Numbered from the stretch's first letter, positions 51,771 to 59,633 are shown. The stretch is 64,000 nt of DNA from an uncultured Spartobacteria bacterium (GCA_903901425.1 CAIURC010000005.1:62001-126000), one strand, 5' to 3'. Notes: generated from the sequence alone by a model not told the origin. Translations and numbers: made by a program.

Positions 51771-52928
51771 TCAATCCAGCGTGGCCTTGGGCGGGGCGAT
51801 GGTGACCGTGGGAGCTGGACCACCCGGTGGGGGGGGGGCTGCAGCGGGCGTGACGTTTACAACGTACTCGTCGGAGATCCATCGTGTGATGTTGGAGGTC
51901 CCGGAGAGTTCCCAACCGGCGGGTAGGCCGAGCTGATCTGTGACCTCGCGTGCGGCGTGGTAGGTGTCTATGGAGTCCTTGTAGACCATGAACCACACGA
52001 CCGCCTTGGGGTCCGCCTTGAGTTTCCGGAGCAGGTTCTGAAACCCGGAGGTAAACATGCGCACCCGTTCGATTTCCTCCCCTGCGTTGGGCAGCGGCGT
52101 GGTGCGCATTTGGATCCGGTTGGAATTGGGCACCTGAAGGACTTCAAACGCGATCTCCCGGTTGCTGAGGCGGCGGCGTGTGAAATAATCGGTGAGTTTT
52201 TTAAGGTCGTAGGTGGTTCGCCGTTTCGGGGAGAGGCGGCCGGATTTTTCCCGTTGCATGACGGGTTTTCCGTCGGGCCCCTTGACGGTTTCGTGGCTGA
52301 CGGCGATGAAAGAGTCAGCGCGTTTGAGTTCCTGCTCGAGGAACTCGAAGTTGTCCTCTTCGTTGAAGAAAAACACGCGTTTGTTGGCGACGAGGAACCT
52401 GTAGAGCTGGGCTTGGTCCGGCATGGGCCGGGGGTTCGGAAGTTTGACAACAGCAGGCGGAGGGGGGGTGAACACCGGGGTTTGATCGAGGCGCGCCTTG
52501 AGTTTGTCGACGTCGGTCAGGAGTTTGGCGACGGTTTCTTTGATTTGGTCGCGTTGTTTGCGTTTTTCCTCGAGTTGTTTCTGGATGGCGTCGAAGTCGA
52601 CCACCCGGATGTTTTGCTTCTCCTTGGAGGCGTCGAGGGCCGCGAGTTCCTCGGCGGATTTTTTGAGTTCCTTTTCGAGCTTGGCCAGTTCCTCCTCGAG
52701 TTTTTTGGGGTCCTCTTTGACCGACGCGTCGTCCACCTGTTTCTTGAGCTTTTCATGTTCCTCCACCGTGACGGGTGGGAGGTCGGAGAGGATTTTTTTG
52801 ACGGAACTTGCGAGGCCGATCCCGACAAAGACGAGGACGATGATGAGCACCCCCACGACGTTGGTCATGGTGTCCATGAGGGCGACAAACGGGAGTTCCT
52901 CCTCGTGATGGGGTTTGCGGCGGGACAT
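51771..52928 (-). CDS. ExbD/TolR-like motor subunit with coiled coil, type 2
   Basis: 385 residues. One N-terminal membrane helix (about 14-40) has the conserved Asp19 (FVALMDTMTN) expected to carry protons. A long charged coiled coil (about 52-150) follows, then a Pro-rich linker and a periplasmic domain (about 165-365; RFLVANKRVFFFNEED, VVWFMVYKDSIDTYH) that is not recognised, and a Pro-rich end. It is larger than ordinary ExbD (about 140 residues). It is the last gene of the three-gene operon, 5 bases after its sister. Confidence 0.75.
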   Translation of the reverse strand: MSRRKPHHEEELPFVALMDTMTNVVGVLIIVLVFVGIGLASSVKKILSDLPPVTVEEHEKLKKQVDDASVKEDPKKLEEELAKLEKELKKSAEELAALDASKEKQNIRVVDFDAIQKQLEEKRKQRDQIKETVAKLLTDVDKLKARLDQTPVFTPPPPAVVKLPNPRPMPDQAQLYRFLVANKRVFFFNEEDNFEFLEQELKRADSFIAVSHETVKGPDGKPVMQREKSGRLSPKRRTTYDLKKLTDYFTRRRLSNREIAFEVLQVPNSNRIQMRTTPLPNAGEEIERVRMFTSGFQNLLRKLKADPKAVVWFMVYKDSIDTYHAAREVTDQLGLPAGWELSGTSNITRWISDEYVVNVTPAAAPPPPGGPAPTVTIAPPKATLD

Positions 52929-52933
52929 GGTGT

Positions 52934-53935
52934 TTAGCCGGGTTTAGGCGGATTGGCAGTCGGTGGGGTGGCCGGTGCGGGAGGAGTTCCAGGCGGGGCT
53001 GCAGGTTTTGGCGGAGTTGCGGGAGCGGCGGGTTGTGCCGGAGCGGGGGCCGGTGGGGCCGGGGGTTTTTCGGGTTTAGGCGGGGCAGGGATGGAGCCGA
53101 GGAAGTCGTTGAACATGCGGAGGTCGATTTCGCCCCGGCCTGGGATGAGGAGTTTGGTGACTTGGCTGACCTGGAATCCGTGGTTGGCCTGAGCCCATCC
53201 GGCGCCGTTGTTGTAGGCGCCCATACCGTCATCCCGGAGGAGGAAGAGGAGTTTGCTGCCCTCCACAGCCTTCACGGAGGTTAGGTATTTATTAAAAGGT
53301 TCGTCGTTGGCGAGCACGTCCGGGGCGGCGCTGACTGTGCCCTTGTTTTGTGCGTTGTAGTAGAAGGTGAGGCGGCCGCCGGTGGCTTCCACGCAGAAGA
53401 CCTTGGAACCCTTGGCCATGCCGGAGCCGCCGGGTTGGACGACGACGGAGGGGGCTTTGTTCTCCGGGGGTTTGCGTTTCTGGATCTCGAGGTTGAGAGC
53501 GGCGATTTCCTTCTGGAGGGGATCGGGCTGGGTTTTGAGGCCGTTGATCTCGAGGGAGAGTTGGTCGAGTTCCTTGAGCAGCTTCATTTCGCGCTCGGAT
53601 TCCTGCTGTTGGATTTCCTTGGAGTTGGAAAGCAGGGTCCGGAGCTTGGCTTTGCGCTCCTCCTGTTCGGCCAGTTTGGGTTTGAGCTTTTCGAGCGCCT
53701 CGACTTTGGGGCGGGTGTCGGTGTTGAGTTTCTGGTTTTCCTTGAGCTTTTTGAGGAGCCTCAGGTGTTCCTCGGCGCGGCTGATTTCCTCCTCGGTGCG
53801 GCCATTGACGCGCTGCATCTGGGTGACGCAGAGGGTGACGATGATGAGGATGAGGACGCCGATGAGGGAGCAGAGGATGTCCAGGAACGGAACCATCATC
53901 AGTTCCTCTGGCGGCCGGTGTCTGCGTTTGCCCAT
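52934..53935 (-). CDS. ExbD/TolR-like motor subunit with coiled coil, type 1
   Basis: 333 residues. A basic cytoplasmic start is followed by one membrane helix (about 13-38) with Asp19 (MVPFLDILCSL), a coiled coil (about 46-155), a small domain (about 165-280; KVFCVEATGGRLTFYYN, LLFLLRDDG) and a Pro/Ala-rich tail. It shares the layout and the Asp19 position of the next gene but is clearly different in sequence, so the two may form a heterodimer. It starts 30 bases after the channel gene. Confidence 0.78.
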   Translation of the reverse strand: MGKRRHRPPEELMMVPFLDILCSLIGVLILIIVTLCVTQMQRVNGRTEEEISRAEEHLRLLKKLKENQKLNTDTRPKVEALEKLKPKLAEQEERKAKLRTLLSNSKEIQQQESEREMKLLKELDQLSLEINGLKTQPDPLQKEIAALNLEIQKRKPPENKAPSVVVQPGGSGMAKGSKVFCVEATGGRLTFYYNAQNKGTVSAAPDVLANDEPFNKYLTSVKAVEGSKLLFLLRDDGMGAYNNGAGWAQANHGFQVSQVTKLLIPGRGEIDLRMFNDFLGSIPAPPKPEKPPAPPAPAPAQPAAPATPPKPAAPPGTPPAPATPPTANPPKPG

Positions 53936-53965
53936 GGGATCTGCGGAGCCTTGTTTGGGCGGGGA

Positions 53966-55330
53966 TTAGTCGCGGCTGAACCAGCCCTTTTTCTTGACCT
54001 GCTGGATGACCACCTGTTTTTCGCCGAGATCCTTGAGGACGTGGTTGAGGGACTGGATCCCGGCATCGAGGCTGGCGAGGTGCTGGGAGGCCATCTGGTT
54101 GGACTGGCTGAGGTGATCGTAAGTCTGGCGGATGGATTCACCGAGCAGATGTTCAACCTCGGCGCGGAGTGTGGCCATGTGGGTCGAGAACTCCTGGAGT
54201 GCGACCTGCTGATGCTCTTGGGTTCGCTGGTCGAGGTTGTCGGAGTAGTCAAGCATCCGTGCGGAGAGCGCGTTCAGGTCGGTGAGGAACTGTCCTTGGG
54301 CAGAGGTGATGGCGCGGACCATGGAGTCAGCCAGGGCATCGGCCTCGCCGCCGGCGGCACCGCTGCCATCGTTGAGACGCGGCAGGAGGACTTCGTTGCA
54401 GAAGGCGTCGATGTCATTGAGGGCCTCGTCTTCTTCCTTGGAGAGGTGGTTGAGCGGGAAGTTCAGGGTGACGGCGAGGACGAGGCCCAGAAGCGTGGCG
54501 TTGAAGGCGGTGCCGAGGCCGCCGATGACTCCGCCCAGGGAGTTCATTGTTTTCTGCATCTCTCCCACGGAGAGGTCGATGGCGGAAAGGGCATGGGAAA
54601 GACCGATGACAGTGCCGATGAATCCCAGGAGCGGGATGGCCCAGAGGAAGGCGCGGACGATGATGTAACTGCCGCTGATCCGTGAGCCGTCCACTCCGGA
54701 CTGGCTGGACATGAGGGAAATGACGTCGCTGGAATTCTGGCGGGCCTCGAAGAATTCGAGGGCTTTCCGGATCCGGTTGACCATGAGGCTGTCCCGGAGC
54801 CGTTCCGGGAGGCGGTAGACGTGGTCAATGAATGTGCCGACGTTGCCGGCGTTGATTTCCTTGCCCAATTCCATGGGGAGCACATCGAGGAGCATGGCGT
54901 CCATCTGGCGTTTGAGCTTGCGGTGCTTGAGGAAAAGGATGGAAGCGCCCCAGCAGAAAAAGAGGACGTTGGTGAAGCTGATTGTGAAGTGTTCGTAGAA
55001 GAGGTTTGCGAACACTTCGCCTCCGGAAAACATGCTGGCCGGTTTGCCCGCAGGCGCTTTAAACGGGAGTACGGCCAGGAACCAGAGTACGGAGATTCCG
55101 AGGCCGGAGGCGAAACTCAGTTTCGCGTTGGGGTTGGTGGGGTCCTCTTCCTTCCATGGGTTTCTGTTGTTCTGAGCCACGCCATTGCCCTGAGTGCGTG
55201 TTTGGGTTTCGGGCGCGGAAAATGCCGGGATCTGGAACTTGATGTTGCACCCCGGGCACTGGACGACCTTCCCGGCCATGGCAGGCTCGGCCATCAGACT
55301 CATGTTACAGGAAGGGCAATTGAATTTCAT
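53966..55330 (-). CDS. TolQ/ExbB/MotA-like proton channel with zinc ribbon and coiled coil
   Basis: 454 residues. A zinc ribbon (CPSC at 5-8, CPGC at 25-28) lies at the cytoplasmic N-terminus. Four membrane helices follow (about 72-91, 117-135, 222-245, 263-292). The last two carry the TolQ/ExbB/MotA pattern (AIPLLGFIGTVIGLSHAL and GGLGTAFNATLLGLVLAV). A cytoplasmic helical domain lies between helices 2 and 3. A C-terminal coiled coil (about 330-445) ends in a Lys-rich stretch. Four helices match MotA rather than TolQ. It is the first gene of the operon. No tonB, pal or peptidoglycan-binding gene is beside it. Confidence 0.85.
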   Translation of the reverse strand: MKFNCPSCNMSLMAEPAMAGKVVQCPGCNIKFQIPAFSAPETQTRTQGNGVAQNNRNPWKEEDPTNPNAKLSFASGLGISVLWFLAVLPFKAPAGKPASMFSGGEVFANLFYEHFTISFTNVLFFCWGASILFLKHRKLKRQMDAMLLDVLPMELGKEINAGNVGTFIDHVYRLPERLRDSLMVNRIRKALEFFEARQNSSDVISLMSSQSGVDGSRISGSYIIVRAFLWAIPLLGFIGTVIGLSHALSAIDLSVGEMQKTMNSLGGVIGGLGTAFNATLLGLVLAVTLNFPLNHLSKEEDEALNDIDAFCNEVLLPRLNDGSGAAGGEADALADSMVRAITSAQGQFLTDLNALSARMLDYSDNLDQRTQEHQQVALQEFSTHMATLRAEVEHLLGESIRQTYDHLSQSNQMASQHLASLDAGIQSLNHVLKDLGEKQVVIQQVKKKGWFSRD

Positions 55331-58821: not shown

Positions 58822-58949
58822 TAGGGGATGCAATTAAGAGAGGTGCAGGGGCGCGGGGAAGCAATTTACAATTGCTTCACAAGATTGGCTGCCCACCCAG
58901 AAACACCCCTGACACTCTAAGCCTCATTCTTTCCCGTCGCTCATGCCGC

Positions 58950-59633
58950 ATGAAAACTCTTCCCTTTCCTCAGTCCTTTCTCCTCGGCTTTTTCCTCTTG
59001 GCGAATGCCAGTTTTGCGGCCGATACCTCCGCTCCGTCCGAAAGCCAACGGGAACACCGACCTGAAACATCTCGGCACCGAAATTTCTCGATGCGCCGGG
59101 CCCCGCTTTTCCGGGCTTTGGACACGGACCGGGACGGGGTGCTGAGTCCAGCCGAACTGGACGGAGCTGCGGGTGCTTTAAAGCGCTTAGATCGGAACGG
59201 GGACGGGAAGGTGGAAGCTCGCGAGTTGGGGGGGATGTCTGCGGAAGACGGGCCTGCTGGCCCCGGGCAGGAACTGGGCCGCAGGAAGTGCCCGGAGCCG
59301 GGTGCGAGGAGTTTCCGTCACCGCCCCCGCGGGCGCGGGTTTCACGGGCCGATGCCCGGACCGCATGGGGAGGGGCGCGGATTTCACGGGCCGATGCCCG
59401 GGCCGCATGGGGAGGGGCGCGGGTTTCACGGACCGATGCCCGGGCCGCACGGGGAAGGGCGTGGGTTTCACGGTCCGATGCCCGGGCCGCACGGGGAAGG
59501 ACGTGGGTTTCACGGACCGATGCCCGGGCCGCATGGGGAAGGACGCGGGTTTCACGGACCGATGCCCGGGCCGCATGGGGAAGGACGCGGGTTTCACGGA
59601 CCTGATCCGGAGCGCCAGCGTGCTCGGGAGTAA
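58950..59633 (+). CDS. Exported EF-hand protein with His/Gly/Pro repeats
   Basis: 227 residues with a Sec signal (to about SFAAD). Two EF-hand loops (DTDRDGVLSPAEL at about 58-70, DRNGDGKVEARELG at about 81-94) should bind calcium. From residue 128 the unit GRGFHGPMPGPHGE occurs six times in full and once in part, giving a His-, Gly- and Pro-rich tail likely to bind transition metals. The arrangement, opposite a two-component system, recalls the small periplasmic CpxP/Spy proteins next to cpxRA, but there is no sequence similarity to them. The start at 58950 is chosen for the signal peptide. Confidence 0.8.
   Translation: MKTLPFPQSFLLGFFLLANASFAADTSAPSESQREHRPETSRHRNFSMRRAPLFRALDTDRDGVLSPAELDGAAGALKRLDRNGDGKVEARELGGMSAEDGPAGPGQELGRRKCPEPGARSFRHRPRGRGFHGPMPGPHGEGRGFHGPMPGPHGEGRGFHGPMPGPHGEGRGFHGPMPGPHGEGRGFHGPMPGPHGEGRGFHGPMPGPHGEGRGFHGPDPERQRARE
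59331..59603. repeat. 42-bp tandem repeat in the EF-hand gene
   Basis: Six full and one partial copies of a 42-base unit encoding GRGFHGPMPGPHGE. Copies differ mostly at third positions, yet the protein unit is unchanged, which suggests selection on the protein. Confidence 0.95.

Follow-up and report, generated by a model that had tools for sequence, protein, structure and literature searches.

A three-gene candidate ion-driven motor of Verrucomicrobiota with two unlike ExbD-like subunits and two residue states

In models of 5:2 ion-driven motors, the axle consists of two identical helices, each bearing an Asp, that alternate within a ring. The locus described here raises the question of what is built when one ring protein is encoded together with two unlike axle proteins, and whether these two proteins share a single axle. 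The window, meaning the whole stretch of 64,000 nucleotides that was analysed, is part of a 5.1 Mb Verrucomicrobiota genome. Three open reading frames were found on its minus strand in the order A-B-C, separated by gaps of 30 and 5 bases, which confirmed the positions and spacing proposed by an earlier sequence-only reading. Gene A (53966..55330, minus strand, 454 aa) encodes a MotA/TolQ/ExbB-type channel subunit. Gene B (52934..53935, minus strand, 333 aa) and gene C (51771..52928, minus strand, 385 aa) encode the putative first and second axle subunits. Ten MotA_ExbB and eleven ExbD matches (Pfam) were present in the window's genome. Two other clusters of this genome (G000:C5:53855-55419 and G000:C149:502-1793) each held one MotA_ExbB and two canonical ExbD matches, so one-to-two ratios of ExbB to ExbD genes are not rare there. 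Elsewhere in the window, in an open frame at 58872-59633 (plus strand), a unit of about 14 residues is repeated several times in tandem, the copies being near-identical (GPMPGPHGEGRGFH).

The product of gene A matched Pfam MotA_ExbB (PF01618) above the gathering score (46.1 bits, cut-off 22.9, E 5.1e-12, residues 189-306). Four hydropathy regions were located at about residues 71-94, 116-134, 218-255 and 268-293. A zinc-ribbon segment of the form CPSC-x16-CPGC occupies residues 5-28 (55247..55318, minus strand), and its cysteines (C5, C8, C25 and C28) are shared by 30 of the 31 relatives aligned; the other row is truncated. The C-terminus forms a cytoplasmic helical tail with the conserved end LGEKQVVIQQVKKKGWFS. 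These features bear out the earlier description of A as a four-helix channel with an N-terminal ribbon. Across 109 rows, the TM3 motif PxxGxxGTxxG (P233, G236, G239, T240, G243) and T279 of TM4 were invariant or nearly so; A275 was invariant, like T279.

B and C each have a single hydrophobic helix with Asp19 at its N-terminal end (residues 20-38 in B, PFLDILCSLIGVL; residues 24-42 in C, ELPFVALMDTMTNVVGVL). B has a proline-rich C-terminal end. Against Pfam ExbD (PF02472), B scored 16.1 bits, under the cut-off of 25.4, and C gave no match. As the family cut-off was not reached, the label ExbD-like rests on architecture, on fold and on the similarity of the B and C profiles, which were related along their length (hhalign 98%). 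Such relatedness is as expected of partners in one dimer. Sequence searches of solved structures returned coiled-coil and weak MotB matches only (best MotB E 0.011, for B), and the PHROGs search returned nothing beyond weak matches of coiled-coil type. Plasmids searched with C of the type-2 state described below gave one weak Anabaena match and nothing useful. In many Verrucomicrobiaceae (L038, L043, L045, L047, L049, L053 and others), C is longer, at about 512 aa, with some 130 residues inserted into its periplasmic domain.

Single chains of B and C were modelled with AlphaFold at modest confidence (pLDDT 77 and 76, pTM 0.37 and 0.50, respectively). The B model comprised a helix at residues 15-43, helices at 48-135 and 137-154, and an alpha/beta domain at 178-274. 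The C model comprised a helix at 14-48, helices between 55 and 148, and a domain at 174-357. Asp19 in both proteins and a long helix in each, as first proposed, were thus found in the sequences and the models, respectively. A TolR-like periplasmic domain was predicted at about residues 171-279 of B, and a TolR/ExbD-like domain, split by an insertion, at about residues 155-343 of C. Foldseek returned nothing with E <0.001 for either model. With VIA-align, E. coli TolR (5by4) was the top match of both B (Z 7.6, rmsd 3.5, 87 residues aligned) and C (Z 8.6, rmsd 3.6, 94 residues aligned), at Z values that are moderate and within the range that chance alone can give. The second match of C was the ExbD periplasmic domain 8pek (Z 6.7). 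TolR headed both lists by one to two and a half units over unrelated rows. Pfam gave no OmpA match in B or C, and the missing OmpA in fold lists headed by TolR proves nothing. The two periplasmic domains, previously called different, are indeed unlike in sequence, yet both find their closest structural match in TolR. With moderate confidence, B and C are each predicted to consist of a single N-terminal TM helix with an Asp and a TolR-like periplasmic domain.

Genome searches were centred on the phylum Verrucomicrobiota. An initial scan gave 29 named loci, with A, B and C in every locus long enough, and the named relatives were Chthoniobacter-, Verrucomicrobium- and Prosthecobacter-type organisms. 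The number of loci with all three genes rose to 121 on wider sampling (110 with distinct A), and the order A-B-C on one strand was kept in every one of the 121. This recurrence and the constant presence of C Asp19 argue that the arrangement is not due to chance. Of 68 genomes from the Verrucomicrobium/Prosthecobacter-type family, 64 held C, as did 63 of 195 from a second family and 22 of 197 from the window's order; C was also scattered through other classes. A search for B in the four genomes of the first family without C found none. Among the genomes that were checked, neither axle gene was absent where its partner was found, which upholds the expected co-occurrence. The pair was merely unlinked in G318 and G178, where A and B lie elsewhere in the genome; in G318, C is on a separate contig from A-B (L280, G318:C40; L282, G318:C5).

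A fourth conserved gene was sought by all-against-all comparison of neighbours at 47 loci, and only lineage synteny was returned (plsY-gpsA and ribBA-ribH-nusB-ftsY). Eighteen sampled neighbours were ordinary, unrelated genes. The A-B-C module seems to be self-contained. No gene for TonB, TolA, TolB or Pal was present in the window flanks or conserved beside the module in relatives, in agreement with the absence of TonB and Pal noted at the outset. A same-strand PD40 beta-propeller gene lies downstream of C in L113 only, and a TPR gene lies downstream of C in L117 only.

Residue states were read at B19, C15, C19 and A114, A121, A240, A278 and A279 in 110 rows, and all rows except one fell into two types. 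Type 1 (53 rows, the window included) has Asp19 in B, Val15 and Asp19 in C, and His114, Asn121, Thr240, Ala278 and Thr279 in A, two of these rows being unaligned at A114/121. Type 2 (56 rows) has Ser19 in B, Asp15 and Asp19 in C, and Arg114, Glu or Leu121, Thr240, Thr278 and Thr279 in A. Position A278 is diagnostic, being Ala in 53 of 53 type-1 rows and Thr in 56 of 56 type-2 rows. The membrane helices of B and C together contain two acidic residues in type 1 and two in type 2. The remaining row, L263 (G744:C3:688100-693800), combines Asp in B (PFLDIIASVIG) with NLDALLD in C and a type-2 A, giving three acids in the axle helices.

The axle Asp is therefore missing from B in 56 rows, a condition that the sequence-only reading had named as refuting, yet Asp19 of C is present in all aligned relatives; the axle would be asymmetric, and the idea of a heterodimer stands. 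In type-2 B, the TM core is free of acids in all 56 rows. With no acid for carrying ions, a type-2 B:B dimer could not work as an axle under the mechanism known for such motors. B would then either pair with C or not belong to the axle, and a B:C hetero-axle is the simplest of these readings. The mixed central dimer suggested by the sequence-only reading is strengthened by the replacement of Asp by Ser in type-2 B and by the joint change of state in A, B and C. The asymmetry recurs in more distant unlike pairs of the phylum (L309, L310, L312, L313, L315). In these five loci, which belong to other families, an Asp-less helix SSFMxILIM is paired with LDSFLD (LDSFLDIxxCLVG). In L307 and L314, also of other families, a SLFSFQD helix (FQD) is paired with LLLDTMCNTFGG (LLLDTMCNTFG).

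A tree of A was rooted on the most distant row. On this tree, Ser at B19 (type 2) is ancestral, and a minimum of three changes is needed at this position: a gain of Asp at the base of type 1, a return to Ser in L104 and a gain of Asp in L263. The reversal in L104 may not be real, as a type-1 clade without L104 was not rejected in the AU test (p-AU 0.43). The covariation of A, B and C is a clear pattern, yet it rests on one to three events, and with so few independent events shared descent explains much of it. All three proteins of G318 are type 1 with C unlinked, which fits a functional match and not linkage alone.

The position that separates the two types was compared with the ion site of PomA by motif-spacing alignment. 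P233, G236, T240 and G243 of A correspond to P151, G154, T158 and G161 of PomA, and A275, residue 278 and T279 of A correspond to A182, T185 and T186. The codons of residues 278-279 (54494..54499, minus strand), equivalent to PomA T185-T186, encode Ala-Thr in type 1 and Thr-Thr in type 2. All three Thr (T240, T278 and T279) are thus present in type-2 A, and type-1 A has Ala at the PomA T185 position. Ala-Thr is also found at the position of PomA T185-T186 in the H+-driven proteins ExbB and TolQ. In PomAB, three Thr (T158, T185 and T186) form the Na+ site and are conserved in Na+-driven stators, and two H+-driven stators have Ala at T158 and T185 (PMC10374538). Because residue 278 falls at a Na+-site residue of PomA, a possible and fair hypothesis is that type 1 and type 2 differ in the use of H+ and Na+.

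From the observed gene set, gene order and residue states, and from the predicted folds, we infer an ion-driven envelope motor (A5:B1:C1), to which a probability of roughly 0.6 is assigned; its stoichiometry, ion flow, rotation and wall binding would be as follows. A pentamer of A would form a ring-shaped ion channel, and one B and one C would form a central two-helix axle inside it. Passage of ions between the Thr240/Thr279 sites of the ring and Asp19 on the axle would rotate one against the other, with acidic residues on both B and C in type 1 and on C only in type 2. The long helices of B and C, with about 100 residues and a straight length of roughly 15 nm, would build a stalk in the periplasm; the two TolR-type domains on it may attach to the cell wall or to a partner in the envelope. 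The ribbon and helical tail of A would sit in the cytoplasm. The pairing of B with C is favoured by the homology of the two proteins, by the ExbD-like start of the B helix and by the Asp of type-1 B. Nearly all genomes of the Verrucomicrobium/Prosthecobacter-type family keep the module, and for this reason general envelope upkeep is guessed to be the most likely driven process, at somewhat under even odds.

A more specific form of the B:C motor was also considered and is judged doubtful. Type 2 would be an asymmetric rotary motor in which only the C helix (Asp15, Asp19) handles ions beside a Ser partner, with five ion steps per turn and not ten, and with a Na+-type ring site (Thr240/278/279). 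Type 1 would have arisen by a single concerted change of all three proteins, which gave it two Asp in the axle and a ring of H+ type (Ala278). L263, with Asp in B alongside type-2 A and C, runs against a coordinated switch.

The mixed axle of B and C has to be weighed against an axle made of two C subunits. B would then be an accessory membrane subunit beside the ring, comparable to TonB or TolA, contributing a stalk and a domain and carrying no ions. The universal Asp19 of C alone would suit such an arrangement, as would Ser19 of B in 56 rows, in 13 of which Lys or Arg is added within the TM segment. B nevertheless keeps the ExbD-type start P-F-x-[D/S], with Asp in type 1 and in L263. Its TM core (F17, I20, L21, L24, I25, G26 and L28) is as invariant as an axle helix, and it is homologous to C lengthwise. 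A C:C axle is accordingly considered unlikely, and the B:C axle is retained.

Two alternative homodimeric motors, A5B2 and A5C2, could also share the common ring protein. The presence of Asp in both B and C of type 1 would allow this, and for AglRQS the choice between homo- and heterodimer is likewise open, with a separate channel for each axle protein being conceivable (PMC9389320). In type 2, however, A5B2 would have no Asp at all, though every one of the 56 rows keeps Ser19, and the proposal is regarded as still less probable than a C:C axle. A Zorya-like or other defence motor, in which a ring with a cytoplasmic tail activates an effector, is very improbable: A matches PADLOC ZorA models (best 6e-10) and has a cytoplasmic helical tail, but its NCBIfam ZorA score is far below the cut-off (18.9 against 100), no neighbour is conserved across the 47 loci compared, the 18 sampled neighbours are unrelated genes, and the module is near-universal in one family, unlike a defence-island gene.

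Among known systems, Zorya ZorAB resembles the module in its ring protein with a cytoplasmic helical tail. A-B-C differs from it in a core, not island, distribution and in having no ZorC/D/E-like neighbours. Membership of Zorya was rejected on this absence and on the ZorA_2 and ZorB1 scores (18.9 against 100 bits and 13 against 400, respectively). PomAB and MotAB share a four-TM ring subunit, and T240, T278 and T279 of type-2 A equal PomA T158, T185 and T186 (PMC10374538); they differ in that the A-B-C axle comes from two unlike genes with domains whose best structural match is TolR. TolQR and ExbBD share the ring motif, the Pfam MotA_ExbB match and the predicted TolR/ExbD-like periplasmic fold, whereas A-B-C has two unlike axle proteins with helices of about 100 residues, and its ring protein A is distinguished by four TM helices, by a zinc ribbon and by the length of its tail. 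Membership of the Ton or Tol-Pal systems was rejected on cut-offs and neighbours, with TonB, TolA, TolB and Pal not encoded alongside.

There are precedents for unlike ExbD/TolR subunits that occur in pairs. The precedents offered in the sequence-only reading were incomplete in this respect, as it gave none for such pairs, which have been published (PMC3169522, PMC9389320, PMC12204202). A 2025 survey of PVC bacteria describes TolQ with a heterologous TolR pair and with TPR and vWA transducer genes (PMC12204202). The likeness lies in the same bacterial group and in one TolQ-like gene with two unlike TolR-like genes; an Asp-less partner is not mentioned in the section consulted. A-B-C differs in having no vWA or conserved TPR neighbour (47 loci compared; among 18 sampled neighbours no vWA, and TPR in L117 only). 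In a literature search that covered few subscription journals, no report was found of an Asp-less axle partner or of a concerted switch. In the AglR-AglQ-AglS gliding motor of Myxococcus xanthus, one TolQ/MotA-type ring protein is combined with two unlike ExbD/TolR-type proteins (PMC3169522, PMC9389320), and A-B-C likewise encodes one ring gene together with two unlike TolR-type genes. AglQ and AglS differ from B and C in that each is described as having a mid-membrane Asp, is short (162 and 194 aa) and matches Pfam ExbD, and AglRQS works with Glt proteins (PMC3169522, PMC9389320). Should the A-B-C axle prove to combine one helix with Asp and one with Ser, the motor would reveal if both acids are required for alternation. 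Native proteins could serve for such a test, since the module occurs naturally both as B Asp, C Val-Asp and A Ala278 and as B Ser, C Asp-Asp and A Thr278. The finding also bears on whether AglQ and AglS pair as heterodimers, for which homo- or heterodimer has been stated to be open (PMC9389320).
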